Origin: Pseudobdellovibrionaceae bacterium | GTDB lineage: Bacteria; Bdellovibrionota; Bdellovibrionia; Bdellovibrionales; Bdellovibrionaceae | DNA: 64,000 nucleotides | Reading direction: 5' to 3' | Assembly (NCBI GenBank): GCA_013359135.1 | Contig: JABWCN010000004.1 | Span: 1-64,000, forward strand | Part shown: positions 684 through 33,527 of the stretch, piece by piece | How positions within the stretch are numbered: the stretch's first letter is position 1 | Layout of the letters: the number at the start of each line of letters is the position of its first letter | Program-made: the position numbers and the translations under genes | Notes under the pieces: generated by a model | Told to the model about the DNA's origin: nothing | Databases searched by the model: none | What the model saw: the letters and a program-made list of their open reading frames with translations, nothing else

Positions 684-712
684 TTGACCCAATTAAAACA
701 TTTCATTATACC
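684..712 (+). promoter_or_regulatory. sigma-70-like promoter for the nucleoside uptake operon
   Basis: TTGACC (684-689), a 17-nt spacer and TATACC (707-712) lie about 45 nt before the ATG at 758, in the divergent gap with the Crp/Fnr gene. Spacing and hexamers fit a housekeeping promoter; transcription was not tested. Confidence 0.55.
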
Positions 713-757
713 TATCCTCGAGTTTATACACTTTTCTGAATAAACAAGGGATTTCAA

Positions 758-1765
758 ATGTTTAGAGCTAATTTATTAGGGTTTTTAAGTATTTTCTCGC
801 TTTTTCTGTTTTTTATGCCATTTAACACTTTACTGGCAACAGAACGTTTAAAAATAGGTTTAGTTTTAGATAAAGGAGGAAAAGACGATAAATCCTTCAA
901 TTCGGCAGCTTTTGAGGGCGCTTCCCTTGCAGAGAAACAATTAGGCATAGAACTTAAATATGTAGAAGCTACGGATGTTAATTCTTTAGAAAATTTACAT
1001 CGTCAATTCGCTAAAAAAAATTATGACCTAATCATTGGAGTTGGATTTGCTCAAGTTGACGCCGTAAAAAAAATCTCTTCTCAGTTTCCAAAAGTTAAAT
1101 TTGCTATTGTAGATGGAGAAGTCACAAATCCTAACGTAAAATCCCTTCTTTTTGAGGAGCATCAAGGATCCTTTTTAGTCGGAGCCTTAGCAGCCATGAA
1201 AACAAAGACAGGAAAAGTTGGATATATCGGCGGAATGGACATCCCTTTAATTCGAAGATTTTCTAAGGGGTACATTGCTGGAATCAAGTACGTATCTCCA
1301 AAAACTCAAATTCTTGAAAATTATATCGGAGTCTCAGGTGAAGCTTGGAACAATCCAGCAAAAGCTAAAGAATTAGCTCTGAACCAATACAACCAAGGTG
1401 TAGAGGTTATTTTTGTTGCGGCTGGAGCTTCTAATTCAGGAGTTTTTGATGCCGCTGAAGAAAAGAAGAAACTCGCTATTGGAGTCGATAGTAACCAAAA
1501 TTGGATTAAGCCAGGATTCATTTTAACTTCTATGCTTAAACGTGTAGACCGCGCAGTTTTTTCTACCATTGAAGATTTAAAGAACAGTAAGTTTCTGGCT
1601 GGATCTCAAAGATATGGACTAAAAGACAAGGGTGTCGACTACTCTCTAGATAAATACAATGAAAAACTTATTTCTAACGAAGAACGGAAAAAACTAGAAA
1701 CTATAAAAGAGGATATTATTAAAGGTAAAATTCAAGTTCCTGATTATTATTTAGAAAAAAAATAA
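758..1765 (+). CDS. BMP/PnrA-family nucleoside-binding protein
   Basis: This is a 335-residue exported substrate-binding protein of the BMP (basic membrane protein, PnrA/TmpC) family, which captures purine or other nucleosides for an ABC importer. An N-terminal hydrophobic signal segment (about residues 5-26) is followed by KIGLVLDKGGKDDKSFN, the typical BMP opening, and later GKVGYIGGMDIPLI and a VIFVAAGASNSGVF segment. Most relatives are lipoproteins, but no cysteine follows this signal peptide, so it is probably a soluble periplasmic protein. It is the first gene of a five-gene operon; the ATPase starts 12 nt downstream. AAGGGA precedes the ATG. Confidence 0.88.
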   Translation: MFRANLLGFLSIFSLFLFFMPFNTLLATERLKIGLVLDKGGKDDKSFNSAAFEGASLAEKQLGIELKYVEATDVNSLENLHRQFAKKNYDLIIGVGFAQVDAVKKISSQFPKVKFAIVDGEVTNPNVKSLLFEEHQGSFLVGALAAMKTKTGKVGYIGGMDIPLIRRFSKGYIAGIKYVSPKTQILENYIGVSGEAWNNPAKAKELALNQYNQGVEVIFVAAGASNSGVFDAAEEKKKLAIGVDSNQNWIKPGFILTSMLKRVDRAVFSTIEDLKNSKFLAGSQRYGLKDKGVDYSLDKYNEKLISNEERKKLETIKEDIIKGKIQVPDYYLEKK

Positions 1766-1777
1766 GGAACTGAAATC

Positions 1778-3385
1778 ATGGCATCATCTTTTGTGCAAAA
1801 AAAACCTCTTATTGAATTAAAACAGGTCTCCAAGAAGTTTGGTACTCGCTGGGCCAATGAAGAAGTCTCTTTCGTTGTTAATAAAGGGCAAATTCATGGT
1901 CTTATAGGAGAAAATGGTGCTGGAAAATCTACAATTATGAAAATACTTTTTGGTCTTTATCAAGCAGATCAAGGAGATATTTTTATAAATTCTGCGAAGG
2001 TCAATATCCGCTCACCTCTGGACGCTTTTAAACATAAAATCGGTATGGTACATCAACATTTTATGTTGAGCCCAGCACACACTGCCCTAGAGAATATTCT
2101 TCTGATACAAGATCATCAAAGACCATTTGAAATATACTCACAAGCAACAAAAATTGAAAAAATTAAGGCCAAAGCTAAGGAATTTAATTTTGAAATTCCC
2201 TGGAACAAAAAAGTAAGTGAACTTCCTGTTGGTATTCAACAACGAATCGAAATTTTAAAATTACTCAACTTAGAACATGAAATTTTAATTTTTGATGAGC
2301 CCACAGCTGTTCTAACTCCTCTTGAAATTGAAGAATTTCTGAATCAATTACAACAGTTAAAACAAAAAGGAAAGACGATCATTTTAATAACTCACAAGCT
2401 TAAAGAAGTAAAAAAAGTTTGTGACCTTGTCACTGTTTTCAAAAAAGGACGATGTCTGGGGACGTTTCCCACTGAGAGTTTAAGTGAAGCACAAATGGCT
2501 GAACTAATGGTTGGTCGTCATGTCGCTTTTCAAAAAAGAAATTTTAGAAAGTTTCCATCAGCTAACATATTGCTTCGCCTTAAAAACATTCTTTTAAAAA
2601 AGAACCCAACCTCAGGATCTTCTTCAAATGCATTTACAAATGAAGGAAAAACAGAGAAAGAAAATAAATTTCATTTTAATTTCAACTTTGATCTGCTTCA
2701 AGGAGAGATTTTAGGTATTGCCGGTATTGAAGGAAATGGGCAAAATGAGTTGATTGATTTTTTACTAAATCCTACAAAATACAAACGCTATTTGGACTCA
2801 AGTCAAGCCCCAGAATATCAACTAACAGGTGATTCATTCTTAACCAAATCCTCACAAAAAATCAGAGAAAAAGCTCTTGCTATTTTTCCTGAAGATCGTC
2901 TTCATCTTGGTTCAATTCCATCTATGAGAGCATTTGAGAACTTCATTCTTGGCTATCAAAGAAAAAGATCGTGGCAACAGGGGGGCTTACTTTCATGGAA
3001 AAAAATTAAAGAAATTTCTCAGGAACGTTTTAATACTTTTCAAGTAGAACCAAAAATTAATAATCTTTCCTTTAACTCCTACTCTGGGGGCAACCAACAA
3101 AAAATGGTAGTAGCTAGAGAGCTCTTTCATTCACCTGATTTTATTTTGGCTGCACACCCAACAAGAGGCGTTGATATCGGAGCTATTGAACTAATCCATG
3201 AACAGCTAATTCAAGCTCAAGAACGTGGAGCTGGCATTCTTCTGATTTCTAGCGAGTTGGATGAACTAACGAAGTTATCCGATCGTATTTTAGTTATCAG
3301 AGAAGGAAAGTTTGTAAAATCATTTATACGCTCCGAATTCGATGAGTGTGAAATAGGTGAGTACATGTTAGGAACAAAAGAATGA
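1778..3385 (+). CDS. Nucleoside ABC transporter, duplicated ATP-binding protein
   Basis: At 535 residues this has two fused ATPase domains, as in YufO/NupO and RbsA-type sugar/nucleoside importers. The first half has an intact Walker A (GENGAGKST), a divergent signature (LPVGIQQRIEIL) and Walker B (ILIFDEPTAVLTP). The second has a degenerate Walker A (GIEGNGQNELI), a good signature (YSGGNQQKMVVAREL) and HPTRGVDIGAIE in place of a normal Walker B. This asymmetry is usual in the family. It energises import through the two permeases encoded next; its stop overlaps the start of the first permease by 4 nt (ATGA). Confidence 0.92.
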   Translation: MASSFVQKKPLIELKQVSKKFGTRWANEEVSFVVNKGQIHGLIGENGAGKSTIMKILFGLYQADQGDIFINSAKVNIRSPLDAFKHKIGMVHQHFMLSPAHTALENILLIQDHQRPFEIYSQATKIEKIKAKAKEFNFEIPWNKKVSELPVGIQQRIEILKLLNLEHEILIFDEPTAVLTPLEIEEFLNQLQQLKQKGKTIILITHKLKEVKKVCDLVTVFKKGRCLGTFPTESLSEAQMAELMVGRHVAFQKRNFRKFPSANILLRLKNILLKKNPTSGSSSNAFTNEGKTEKENKFHFNFNFDLLQGEILGIAGIEGNGQNELIDFLLNPTKYKRYLDSSQAPEYQLTGDSFLTKSSQKIREKALAIFPEDRLHLGSIPSMRAFENFILGYQRKRSWQQGGLLSWKKIKEISQERFNTFQVEPKINNLSFNSYSGGNQQKMVVARELFHSPDFILAAHPTRGVDIGAIELIHEQLIQAQERGAGILLISSELDELTKLSDRILVIREGKFVKSFIRSEFDECEIGEYMLGTKE

Positions 3386-4479
3386 ATCCTTCTAACCTTT
3401 TTTTAAAAAAAACATCACACATTAGCTCTTCTTTTTTATATTTTTTAAGAACCTCTTCCGGATTTTTTATTGGACTTTTTTTTGCCCTTCTACTCACTTT
3501 GATTGTCGGAGAAAATCCTGTACATATTTTTCTAATCATTATGAAGAGTGCCTTCGGTAGTGCTTATGATCTTGGACTGACACTATTTTATACGACGTCT
3601 CTTATCTTTACAGGATTATCTGTTGCTATAGCTTTCCGAGGTGGTCTTTTTAATATAGGGGCTGAAGGTCAGTTGACTATGAGTGCTTTGGGAATGGTTG
3701 GATTTGCATACTTATTTCCAGAGATTCCCCGCCCTTTTAGTTATGTTGCTATTTTTCTTGTAGGCTCTTTATGTGGTGCCGTTTGGGCTTTCATTCCTGG
3801 ATATCTAAAAGCATTTCGTGACAGTCATGAAGTGATTGTCACTATGATGCTAAATTTTGTGGCTGCAGGTATTTCAAGTTATGTAATTGTAAACGTAATT
3901 CCCAACCAACAATCTCAAAATCCTGAAAGCTTTATTATTTCAGATTCTTTTCGGACGAATCACTTTGATTTTATAAATACACTGTTTCCAGATTCACCAG
4001 CTAATTTATTTTTGTTATTAGCTATTTTCACAGCCATCATGCTATATCTTTTTTTTGAAAAAACATTACTTGGTTATGAACTCAAAGTGTCTGGGGAAAA
4101 CCCTTTAGCCGCAGAACGAGCCGGAATACCAGTGAAAAAAATGATGATTATCGCCATGGTTCTTTCTGGACTTTTTGCAAGTGGTTCAGGAATGAATGAG
4201 GTTATGGGATTTAGTGGACAATTTAAAATGGGATTTTCTCCTGAGTTTGGTTTCATCGGAATCGCTGTGGCTTTAATGTCCAACAATAATCCTCTAGGTA
4301 TAATGGTCAGTGCCTTCCTTATGGGAGCCTTACACAAGGGAGCTTCTGACTTAGATTTTGAAACTGAAACGATCACCAGAGATTTTTCTAAAATTTTACA
4401 AGCAATGATTATTTTTGGCGTTGGTTTTCAGTATTATCTCAACAAAAAGTTTTTCCGAGGTGAAAATGGAAGCCACTGA
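3382..4479 (+). CDS. Nucleoside ABC transporter permease (NupP-like)
   Basis: A 365-residue multi-spanning inner-membrane protein of the BPD_transp_2 family (RbsC/YufP type). Several hydrophobic helices start near residue 28. The block FRGGLFNIGAEGQLTMSALG is the conserved family motif after the second helix, and DSHEVIVTMMLNFVA and NPLAAERAGIPVKKMM are also typical. With its partner it should form the translocation path for nucleosides delivered by the BMP protein. It is translationally coupled to the ATPase upstream and overlaps the second permease by 14 nt. Confidence 0.9.
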   Translation: MNPSNLFLKKTSHISSSFLYFLRTSSGFFIGLFFALLLTLIVGENPVHIFLIIMKSAFGSAYDLGLTLFYTTSLIFTGLSVAIAFRGGLFNIGAEGQLTMSALGMVGFAYLFPEIPRPFSYVAIFLVGSLCGAVWAFIPGYLKAFRDSHEVIVTMMLNFVAAGISSYVIVNVIPNQQSQNPESFIISDSFRTNHFDFINTLFPDSPANLFLLLAIFTAIMLYLFFEKTLLGYELKVSGENPLAAERAGIPVKKMMIIAMVLSGLFASGSGMNEVMGFSGQFKMGFSPEFGFIGIAVALMSNNNPLGIMVSAFLMGALHKGASDLDFETETITRDFSKILQAMIIFGVGFQYYLNKKFFRGENGSH

Positions 4480-5353
4480 TTTTTTTTCAATCAGTTTTAT
4501 ATTAAGCTTTTTAATCAGTTCACTTAGGGTGTCTGTACCGTTGATTTTTGCCTCGCAGGCGGGACTGTTAAGTGAACGTTCTGGAATTGTTCAAATTGGA
4601 CTTGAAGGGTTTATGCTGATTGGGGCCTTTTCTGCAGCTAGCTTTGCTCATTATTATCAGTCCTCTTATGTAGGTTTTGGTATGGCTTTTTTAATGGGAA
4701 GTTTTTTTAGCTTTCTTTTCAGTTTATTTGTCATTAAATTTAAAGCAGATCAAATTGTAATTGGAACAGCATTCAATTTATTAATTGCAGGGCTGATTCC
4801 TTTTATAAGTAAGTTTTTATTCAACTCTACAGGTTCTACCCCCTCCTTACCTATTGAGATTCGCTTGAGTGTGATCCCTATTCTTTTAGCTTTTTTAGCT
4901 GTTATATTAATTCATTTATGGCTTTATCATTTTCGCTCTGGATATTGGGTTCAATTTGCAGGTGAACATCCAGAAACCCTTTTAAGTGCCGGCGTCAGTG
5001 TTGATAAAGTCCGTTATATTTGCCTAGCTCTGTGTGGAGGAGTTGCCGCTTTGGGTGGAGCCTCACTTTCCTTATTTTTATCTTCCAACTACTCTCCACT
5101 GATGACAGGTGGAAGAGGTTTTATTGCTCTAAGTGCTGTGATTCTGGGAAAATGGAAACCAATTCCGACACTATTAGCTTGTCTTCTATTTGGAATCTTA
5201 GATGCTTTACAAATTAGACTTCAAGGGGTGATCATAGGTGATTTTAAAATTCCAGTTCAGTGGATTCAAATTCTCCCTTACTTACTAACAATTATTATTT
5301 TAGCTGGTCTTTTTGGAAAAAGTAAAGCTCCAGCCTTTTTGGGAAAAAAATAG
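4466..5353 (+). CDS. Nucleoside ABC transporter permease (NupQ-like)
   Basis: The second permease of the importer, 295 residues from the ATG at 4466. I prefer this start over the upstream TTG at 4415 because GAGG sits 5 nt before it and the protein then begins directly with the first membrane segment. AGLLSERSGIVQIGLEGFML is the family motif corresponding to the one in the first permease; GGRGFIALSAVILGKWKP near the C-terminus is also characteristic. The two permeases make the heterodimeric membrane core. Confidence 0.9.
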   Translation: MEATDFFSISFILSFLISSLRVSVPLIFASQAGLLSERSGIVQIGLEGFMLIGAFSAASFAHYYQSSYVGFGMAFLMGSFFSFLFSLFVIKFKADQIVIGTAFNLLIAGLIPFISKFLFNSTGSTPSLPIEIRLSVIPILLAFLAVILIHLWLYHFRSGYWVQFAGEHPETLLSAGVSVDKVRYICLALCGGVAALGGASLSLFLSSNYSPLMTGGRGFIALSAVILGKWKPIPTLLACLLFGILDALQIRLQGVIIGDFKIPVQWIQILPYLLTIIILAGLFGKSKAPAFLGKK

Positions 5354-5386
5354 CTTAACAAAAAATAGAAAAGGATTAAATTATCT

Positions 5387-6523
5387 ATGAAAAAACAGCA
5401 AAAAGAGACTTCAGCTCTGAATGTTCTATTATTTTTTCTGACACCTTTTATATTTTTAGTGATACCACACAAAGCTCATGCTTGGAGTGGACGAGGACAT
5501 CACGTAATTTGTTCAGCTGCACCTCATCTGATTAAAAATAAAGAACTCAAAGAATTTCTTTTGCAACGCCCTCACACTCTAGGGCACTTGTGTAATATTC
5601 CAGATATTTACTGGAAATCACTTGGCGCTACAGCCAATGAGTTAGGTAGTCCATCACACTATATTGATCCCGAAGTGATTGGTATAAAAATTCAAGACAT
5701 TCCTTTAGATTTTAAAAAACTTGAACAAGAATACTCAGGAAAAAAAAATCAATTCAAGCCAGAAAAAAATATCTACTCTCTTGCCAGAGAAATGGGTTCT
5801 TTATGGTGGAGAGCTCAGCAGTTTTTTGATTTAACACTTAATTTAAAACCAGCTTTTGCAAAAAGTGATTTACCTAAAAATTTCAAAGAAGAACAAGATG
5901 AAAAGCTTCCGTTCAATCAAACTACTTTTAAAATGATTGAATATTTCGGACTTATTGGTCACTTCATTGGTGATGCCGCTCAACCCTATCACAGCACTGC
6001 TGATTTTGATGGATATGAATCTGGTCATGGTGGTATTCATGCCTATTATGAAGAAATGCTTGTCGCACAATTTTCTTCTGAAATTGAAGGAGACATCGTC
6101 AAAAACGCAAAAAGCTTATCAAAAAAACAAAAAGCTTTTTTAAAGGGAAACAGTTTTATAGAACAAATCAAAAATCTTTCAACTTTGAGTCATTCCGAAA
6201 TTGAAATTATTAAAAATAAGGATCCCATTCTAAAAAAATCTGAAGTTAAAAAAGAAAAAGGAATGGAAATAAAAACAGCAGCTCAAAGAAAACCCGCAAA
6301 TGAAGGATTTAAAATTTTTAAAAATATTATTATTACGGATATGTCTCGAGCTGCTTTACTTATAGCACAAACTTGGGAATCCTCTTATGAAGCCTTGGGT
6401 TCTCCAAAGCTTTCTGCTTACAAAAGTTATAGGTATCCTTTTACTCCTGACTTTGTTGAAGTAAACTACGTGACCAATGAGGCTTCAAATAAAGAAATCC
6501 CCAACAAAGATGAAAAAAAATAA
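5387..6523 (+). CDS. Exported S1/P1-type zinc nuclease
   Basis: A 378-residue exported protein of the S1/P1 nuclease family: zinc-dependent nucleases that cut single-stranded DNA and RNA to 5'-nucleotides and remove 3'-phosphates. The signal peptide should be cut after AHA, leaving Trp33 as the new N-terminus; in this family the N-terminal Trp binds zinc. SGRGHHVICSAA follows, and a second zinc-ligand block is GLIGHFIGDAAQPYHS (about residues 189-204) before GGIHAYYEEML. A lysine-rich stretch near residues 235-300 looks like an insertion. It is the last gene of the nucleoside-import operon, 33 nt after the permease, which suggests it feeds the importer. Confidence 0.82.
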   Translation: MKKQQKETSALNVLLFFLTPFIFLVIPHKAHAWSGRGHHVICSAAPHLIKNKELKEFLLQRPHTLGHLCNIPDIYWKSLGATANELGSPSHYIDPEVIGIKIQDIPLDFKKLEQEYSGKKNQFKPEKNIYSLAREMGSLWWRAQQFFDLTLNLKPAFAKSDLPKNFKEEQDEKLPFNQTTFKMIEYFGLIGHFIGDAAQPYHSTADFDGYESGHGGIHAYYEEMLVAQFSSEIEGDIVKNAKSLSKKQKAFLKGNSFIEQIKNLSTLSHSEIEIIKNKDPILKKSEVKKEKGMEIKTAAQRKPANEGFKIFKNIIITDMSRAALLIAQTWESSYEALGSPKLSAYKSYRYPFTPDFVEVNYVTNEASNKEIPNKDEKK

Positions 6524-6535
6524 TTTAGCTTTAAG

Positions 6536-6564
6536 TATCAGGAACAAAAGACTTGTTCCTGATA
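6536..6564 (+). terminator. Hairpin ending the nuclease/importer operon
   Basis: A perfect 12-bp inverted repeat (6536-6547 with 6553-6564, loop AAGAC) lies between the convergent nuclease and hypothetical genes. It lacks a strong T tract on the plus strand, so it may act as a bidirectional or weak terminator. Confidence 0.6.
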
Positions 6565-8603: not shown

Positions 8604-9203
8604 ATGAATTTTTTATTATCATTTTATTTATGTATTTTCACTCTCGGTTGCGTTAGTCTTGCAAAAGATTCAAGACCTACAGTACAAACAGCTCAGTTTG
8701 TCGATCTTAACAAGTACCTTGGTAAATGGTACGAAGTTGCTAGTATTCCCCAAAGCTTTCAAAAACAATGTGTTGCCAACACTACGGCCCAATACTCTTT
8801 AACTGATAATGGACTTATAAAAGTTTTAAATTCATGCACGAAGATTGATGACAGTGTTTCAGTTGCCGAAGCCAGAGCACGCGTTATAGACACGCAATCA
8901 TACTCCAAACTAAAAGTCACCTTTGTTAAACTATTTGATTGGGTTTTTGCTTTTGGAGGTAACTATTGGATTTTAGATGTAGATTCAAACTACAATATAG
9001 CTCTTGTTGGAGATCCAACTAGAAATTATGCTTGGATTCTGAGCCGCTATCCATCACTTTCAACAGCTCAATGGGTTGAGGCCGAAAAGACTTTTAAAAA
9101 TCAAGGCTATGATACTTGTAAAATTTTGACATCAATACAGGCTGGAGGATTAAATTCAAGAGTTCCACTTTGTCAGTACTTAAAACATCTTTCCTTCAAT
9201 TGA
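8604..9203 (+). CDS. blc: Blc-type bacterial lipocalin lipoprotein
   Basis: A 199-residue lipocalin, an eight-stranded barrel that binds lipids. The signal peptide ends in a lipobox (FTLGC), so it is probably anchored in the outer membrane. YLGKWYEVASIP is the lipocalin GxW motif, and LVGDPTRNYAWILSRYP is the diagnostic Blc block. TTGGAGG precedes the ATG. The 3' end overlaps the convergent outer-membrane protein gene by 24 nt. In other bacteria Blc has been linked to membrane lipid maintenance. Confidence 0.92.
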   Translation: MNFLLSFYLCIFTLGCVSLAKDSRPTVQTAQFVDLNKYLGKWYEVASIPQSFQKQCVANTTAQYSLTDNGLIKVLNSCTKIDDSVSVAEARARVIDTQSYSKLKVTFVKLFDWVFAFGGNYWILDVDSNYNIALVGDPTRNYAWILSRYPSLSTAQWVEAEKTFKNQGYDTCKILTSIQAGGLNSRVPLCQYLKHLSFN

Positions 9204-10045: not shown

Positions 10046-10079
10046 AAAAAAAAAGGCGATGTTATACATCGCCTTTTTT
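10046..10079 (-). terminator. Rho-independent terminator of the porin-like gene
   Basis: AAAAGGCGATG (10051-10061) pairs with CATCGCCTTTT (10067-10077) around a 5-nt loop. Reading leftward, the minus strand continues into a run of T residues. It sits 27 nt past the end of the 360-residue barrel protein gene. Confidence 0.85.
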
Positions 10080-33455: not shown

Positions 33456-33460
33456 AACCT

Positions 33461-33495
33461 AAAAAGCCTATGAATTTTAGGTTTCATAGGCTTTT
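33461..33495 (+). terminator. Strong bidirectional terminator
   Basis: AAAAAGCCTATGAA (33461-33474) pairs with TTCATAGGCTTTTT (33482-33495), with T runs on both strands. It serves the chemoreceptor on the plus strand and the convergent thiolase on the minus strand. Confidence 0.88.
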
Positions 33496-33527
33496 TATTT
33501 AAATATAATTATCAAAAAACTAATTAA

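Follow-up and report, generated by a model that had tools for sequence, protein, structure and literature searches.

A conserved five-gene operon of the Bdellovibrionaceae-type family combines a probable nucleoside importer with a predicted exported zinc phosphoesterase

Uptake of the building blocks of prey DNA and RNA by Bdellovibrio is classical physiology, and our literature search turned up no paper that assigns transporter genes to this uptake. The closest described importers are the BMP-type systems of PnrA/TmpC, BmpA, BmpD and C. thermocellum Lbp. In the solved BMP relatives nucleosides are bound in a buried pocket, the residues of which are given for BmpA and its relatives in the available part of PMC13325309, and the electron density of the Lbp crystal was fitted best by guanosine, according to the accessible portion of PMC9601137. 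The closest enzymes are the S1/P1 nucleases (S1, P1, TBN1, AtBFN2 and SmNuc1), for which the zinc ligands are described for SmNuc1 in the available part of PMC11705217, and the zinc-dependent phospholipases C of B. cereus and L. monocytogenes. In Leishmania, a p1/s1 3′-nucleotidase/nuclease of the same superfamily makes nucleosides for uptake but, as far as the accessible text of PMC13232948 goes, this eukaryotic salvage involves no operon shared with an importer. Here we describe a five-gene unit that encodes a probable nucleoside pump together with a predicted exported zinc enzyme akin to, yet distinct from, the known nucleases. Our literature search found no paper on this five-gene operon.

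The operon was read from a window of 64,000 nucleotides, the whole stretch of DNA analysed. Its five + strand ORFs encode a BMP/PnrA-type periplasmic substrate-binding protein (758-1765), an RbsA-type double ATPase (1778-3385), permease 1 (3382-4479), permease 2 with its ATG at 4466 (4466-5353) and a predicted exported trinuclear-zinc phosphoesterase belonging to a sister clade of the S1/P1 nucleases (5387-6523). These coordinates confirm the intergenic spacings of +12, -4, -14 and +33 claimed by the initial annotation, which had also placed one promoter in front of the genes and one 12-bp hairpin behind them. The sigma70-type promoter consists of TTGACC at 684, a 17-nt spacer and TATACC at 707 (684-712, + strand), and was absent from the output of a consensus scan of the window. 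The single promoter was nevertheless borne out by comparison, in that TTGACN-N17-TA was found in 14 of the 16 regulator-BMP intervals (mean 0.28 and maximum 2 after shuffling, 0 on the reverse strand), which come from related loci and so are not independent. On the other side of the promoter lies a divergent CRP/FNR-family regulator gene with a cNMP-binding domain (3-608, - strand; cNMP_binding 55.9 bits), which is truncated at the contig start and had been missed by the earlier reader. A full-length relative of this regulator possesses HTH_Crp_2 plus the cNMP-binding domain, and a divergent CRP-family gene faces the operon at 18 of 21 linked loci; a TrmO-type gene follows this regulator in 13 of them. 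The hairpin behind the operon proved to be perfect (6536-6564; 12 bp, loop 5, -15.9 kcal/mol) and is one of three perfect hairpins of at least 12 bp within the 64 kb, but with a T run missing on the + strand it does not qualify as a canonical intrinsic terminator, and that reading was rejected although the hairpin itself is genuine. In contrast, the perfect hairpins at 10049-10079 (14 bp) and 33460-33497 (15 bp) carry terminal T runs and are likely terminators. A gene for a Blc-type lipocalin (8604-9203) lies downstream of the operon. The five genes are probably expressed as a single transcript.

A search for the same gene order in related genomes, along the lines that the initial annotation had proposed, showed that the operon is conserved in the Bdellovibrionaceae-type family. 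In 39 of the 61 genomes of the window's family one strand carries the genes in the order BMP - ATPase - permease - permease - fifth gene, and the cluster is therefore not a chance arrangement. Linkage was defined as a fifth gene and a BMP gene on one strand within 6 kb, and was counted from all 61 BMP rows and 79 of the 92 fifth-gene rows, the 13 omitted being second fragments or weaker rows from genomes already counted. Of the 99 related genomes, 76 yielded the fifth protein and 60 the BMP protein. Within the family the two were linked in 39 genomes and apart in 6 (one of these, G024, has only a 47-residue fragment of the fifth gene), with 13 genomes holding the fifth gene only, 1 the BMP gene only and 2 neither. 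Linkage was seen in none of the 38 genomes beyond the family, of which 12 hold both genes apart, 6 the fifth gene only, 2 the BMP gene only and 18 neither. Among 21 loci (20 linked loci and the window), 18 have a final gap no longer than 50 nt and 6 a gap no longer than 2 nt. The context of the fifth gene was read in 10 of the 13 importer-less family genomes, where the gene often occupies this same site: five of the ten have it adjoining the CRP-type gene, two of them with a short ORF between, and in one further case it stands beside TrmO. Conversely, the importer occupies the site without the fifth gene in three genomes (L126, L129 and L130). Since either the fifth gene or the importer can be found alone at the same site, an ancestral five-gene unit is suggested, from which one module or the other was later lost or moved.

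The initial annotation had claimed a complete BMP/RbsA-type importer, which was upheld. The first protein scores 230.4 bits against the Bmp family (PF02608; cut-off 24.1), and among solved sequences it comes closest to Lbp, PnrA/TmpC and other BMP proteins. The ATPase contains two ABC_tran stretches, its RbsA/XylG-like NCBIfam matches lying under their cut-offs, and the two permeases match BPD_transp_2 with 140.6 and 96.2 bits; the double ATPase and both permeases thus occur in one cluster with their families over the Pfam cut-offs. In protein families and gene set, including the RbsA-like ATPase and two BPD_transp_2 permeases, the locus resembles the PnrA/TmpC, BmpA, BmpD and Lbp systems, and differs in that the operon includes a zinc phosphoesterase. 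The BmpA-type pocket residues given in the available part of PMC13325309 map by alignment to F47, F168, W197, D119, D244 and K261, all of which are invariant in 50 of 50 BMP rows. The binding protein therefore retains the described nucleoside pocket, with an aromatic sandwich, the stacking Phe and the ribose-binding Asp and Lys residues of these relatives, except that the second stacking Phe (the Phe176 position) is Trp197 in 50/50. A further departure is the addition of two basic residues in the specificity loop, K39 (48 K, 2 R) and K42 (50/50), where the four solved relatives in the alignment have S, V, V or T and D, V, R or V, respectively. Judged by these pocket residues, the substrates of the pump are probably nucleosides.

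A ligand other than a nucleoside, such as vitamin B6 or a sugar, would mean that the link to nucleic acid has been over-read. The best NCBIfam matches of the importer are indeed subunits of a 'putative B6 ABC transporter' (NF047927-NF047930), but all four fall far under the equivalog cut-offs (95/400, 352/670, 143/400 and 130/465 bits), so that the putative B6 importer was rejected as an assignment; with the conserved pocket, as far as its residues are described in the available part of the source, we consider any such ligand very unlikely. The window's genome also encodes a PNP_UDP_1 (nucleoside phosphorylase-type) enzyme, and a NupC-type carrier found no match there. Importers of family f10 adjoin transglycosylase, epimerase and PAP2 genes, and none of their 10 tested neighbours is a nucleoside-handling gene.

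The fifth protein had been called an S1/P1 nuclease that acts outside the cytoplasm. Predicted export, fold and a three-zinc site agree with this description, whereas the family assignment did not hold. The protein has a predicted Sec signal peptide, judged by eye, which ends in ...AHA directly before W, and cleavage here would expose the N-terminal Trp required as a zinc ligand. A structure predicted from 47 family sequences (mean pLDDT 91.8), the set on which all residue claims for this protein rest because the larger 72-row set held duplicate genes, matches the S1, SmNuc1, TBN1, AtBFN2 and P1 nucleases with Z of 18.9-20.6 (20.6 for S1, rmsd 3.6 over 233 residues) as against 14.4-17.5 for the phospholipases C. 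A phmmer search of the PDB sequences with the fifth protein gave 0 matches, while a profile search did match. The equivalents of the SmNuc1 zinc ligands, as listed in the available part of PMC11705217, are W33, H38, D73, H91, H192, D196, H202, H218 and E222, and these are invariant in 47/47. Eight of the nine ligands (W, H, D, H, H, D, H, H, D) are thus identical, the ninth, Asp179 of SmNuc1, being replaced by Glu throughout; an aromatic residue follows the His at 91, as in the S1/P1 nucleases.

Against this likeness, the S1-P1_nuclease model (PF02265) gives 25.0 bits, under its cut-off of 29.5, and the base-binding loop between H202 and H218 has 16 residues in 47/47 rather than about 24. Among 21 canonical S1/P1 loci from the same taxonomic order, 20 have a loop of 24 residues and one a loop of 26, ending in HxxWD, and in SmNuc1 the part absent from the fifth protein carries half of the nucleoside-binding site (Lys158 and Asn161). 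All 17 canonical S1/P1 proteins fall on one side of the tree (100/100) and the fifth proteins form their own clade, although a profile comparison still joins the two groups (97.3%, E 2e-11). Taking the sub-threshold score, the separate clade, the phospholipase C-like third zinc site and the shortened loop together, the name 'S1/P1 nuclease' is not established, and canonical membership was ruled out by the Pfam cut-off, the loop, the Glu and the clade. Two canonical S1/P1 proteins are encoded elsewhere in the window's genome (G000:C27:68858-69610 and G000:C57:10623-11552), the latter with an unusually long loop of 39 residues.

The same features raise the question of whether the fifth protein instead hydrolyses lipids or phosphoesters, as a zinc phosphohydrolase of phospholipase C-like or general type, and shares the promoter with the nucleoside importer only because both are required at a common growth stage. 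Its third zinc site, HxxxE (H218...E222), aligns with the phospholipase C chain, which has HxxxE and a 14-residue loop in the alignment; the short loop and HxxxE thus resemble the B. cereus enzyme, the superfamily fold is common to both, and the Zn_dep_PLPC model picks up 15 of the 47 members. The two modules are moreover separable, and relatives of the fifth gene elsewhere have diverse neighbours. The Zn_dep_PLPC score, however, is 17.1 bits against a cut-off of 26.8 (PF00882), while S1-P1_nuclease matches every one of the 47 with E no higher than 0.1, with a best member E of 1.4e-10 compared with 9.1e-5 for Zn_dep_PLPC. The predicted fold also lies nearer S1/P1, and the His at Trp+5 is that of the S1/P1 nucleases. 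PF00882 matched nothing in the window's genome at E up to 0.001. We regard such a phospholipase-like role as unlikely, although it deserves some weight, and favor assignment of the fifth protein as probably an exported zinc phosphoesterase of the 3′-nucleotidase/nuclease type.

3′-Nucleotidase activity is known in the S1/P1 superfamily; RNases leave 3′-nucleotides, which a 3′-nucleotidase turns into nucleosides. The initial annotation had recognized that a phosphatase activity would be needed between nuclease and importer, and the problem is real: the window's genome contains no match to 5_nucleotid_C (UshA-type) or Alk_phosphatase (PhoA-type). A 3′-nucleotidase activity of the fifth enzyme would close this gap. 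In the chain that we propose, the Sec-exported three-zinc phosphoesterase would most likely cut small RNA or DNA fragments and strip phosphate from them, part of its product would be nucleoside, and this would be bound in the periplasm by the BMP protein and imported by the ATPase and the two permeases, making the operon a plausible way to feed on prey DNA and RNA. We put the probability of this full chain, a one-promoter operon whose nucleoside importer is fed by an exported phosphoesterase of a distinct clade, at about 0.5. That the fifth gene supplies the importer is favored by their linkage in 39 genomes and weakened by the 13 of 61 that keep the fifth gene alone and the 6 in which the two are apart. 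The reduced base-binding loop, the HxxxE shared with phospholipase C, the persistence of either module alone and the unrelated genes beside distant relatives likewise count against it.

The proposed chain is also weakened by the available part of PMC7529429, which reports, citing the radiotracer work of Ruby 1985 and of Matin and Rittenberg 1972, that the nucleic-acid precursors of Bdellovibrio are mainly host nucleoside monophosphates used intact. This observation would be explained if the fifth enzyme were a plain 5′-NMP-releasing nuclease and the importer took up its NMPs, a reading in keeping with the basic residues at K39 and K42 found in every BMP specificity loop examined and not general in the four solved relatives, and with a genome devoid of UshA and PhoA matches. 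Nucleosides, however, occupy the buried pocket of the solved relatives in the part of PMC13325309 available, the nucleoside pocket residues are retained here and no phosphate site is evident, which leaves NMP import a distinctly unlikely alternative. A broader version, in which the operon is Bdellovibrio's dedicated route for prey nucleotides, with a third S1/P1-phospholipase C branch cutting prey nucleic acid and a K39/K42-altered BMP importer carrying the nucleotides intact, would, if true, explain the classical observation that nucleoside monophosphates are taken up whole, and we give it only a slim chance.

Whichever substrate is carried, the conserved gene set is now open to deletion and assay in a named strain, since B. 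bacteriovorus strain kdesi (L154) is among the named genomes with all five genes. The corresponding HD100 locus tags presumably lie near Bd0433-Bd0450, a range that we guessed from genome position. Bd0434 and Bd0446 (PMC12546842) were the only guessed tags that we found in a relevant paper, and no tie to the operon was found. The predicted exported zinc enzyme is missed by standard annotation: four of four searched genomes of genus g6 lack a Pfam S1/P1 match though the fifth protein is present, and the portion of PMC3593177 available, which lists 20 HD100 nucleases, contains no S1/P1-type entry.

Relatives of the fifth gene outside the operon have diverse, unrelated neighbors. Distant homologues at L199, L202 and L204 stand directly ahead of an importer set, which at L199 comprises Pfam SBP_bac_11, BPD_transp_1 and then an ATPase-like gene. 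One frame at L198 (3228-5174) combines a fifth-protein homologue with a cyclophilin-type domain in a single fusion, and a frame of matching size occurs at L209 (4311-6251). In a related family (L143, L144, L145, L207, L214, L222 and others) the homologue follows SIS-domain and lytic transglycosylase genes, a context that hints at a role in cell-wall work.
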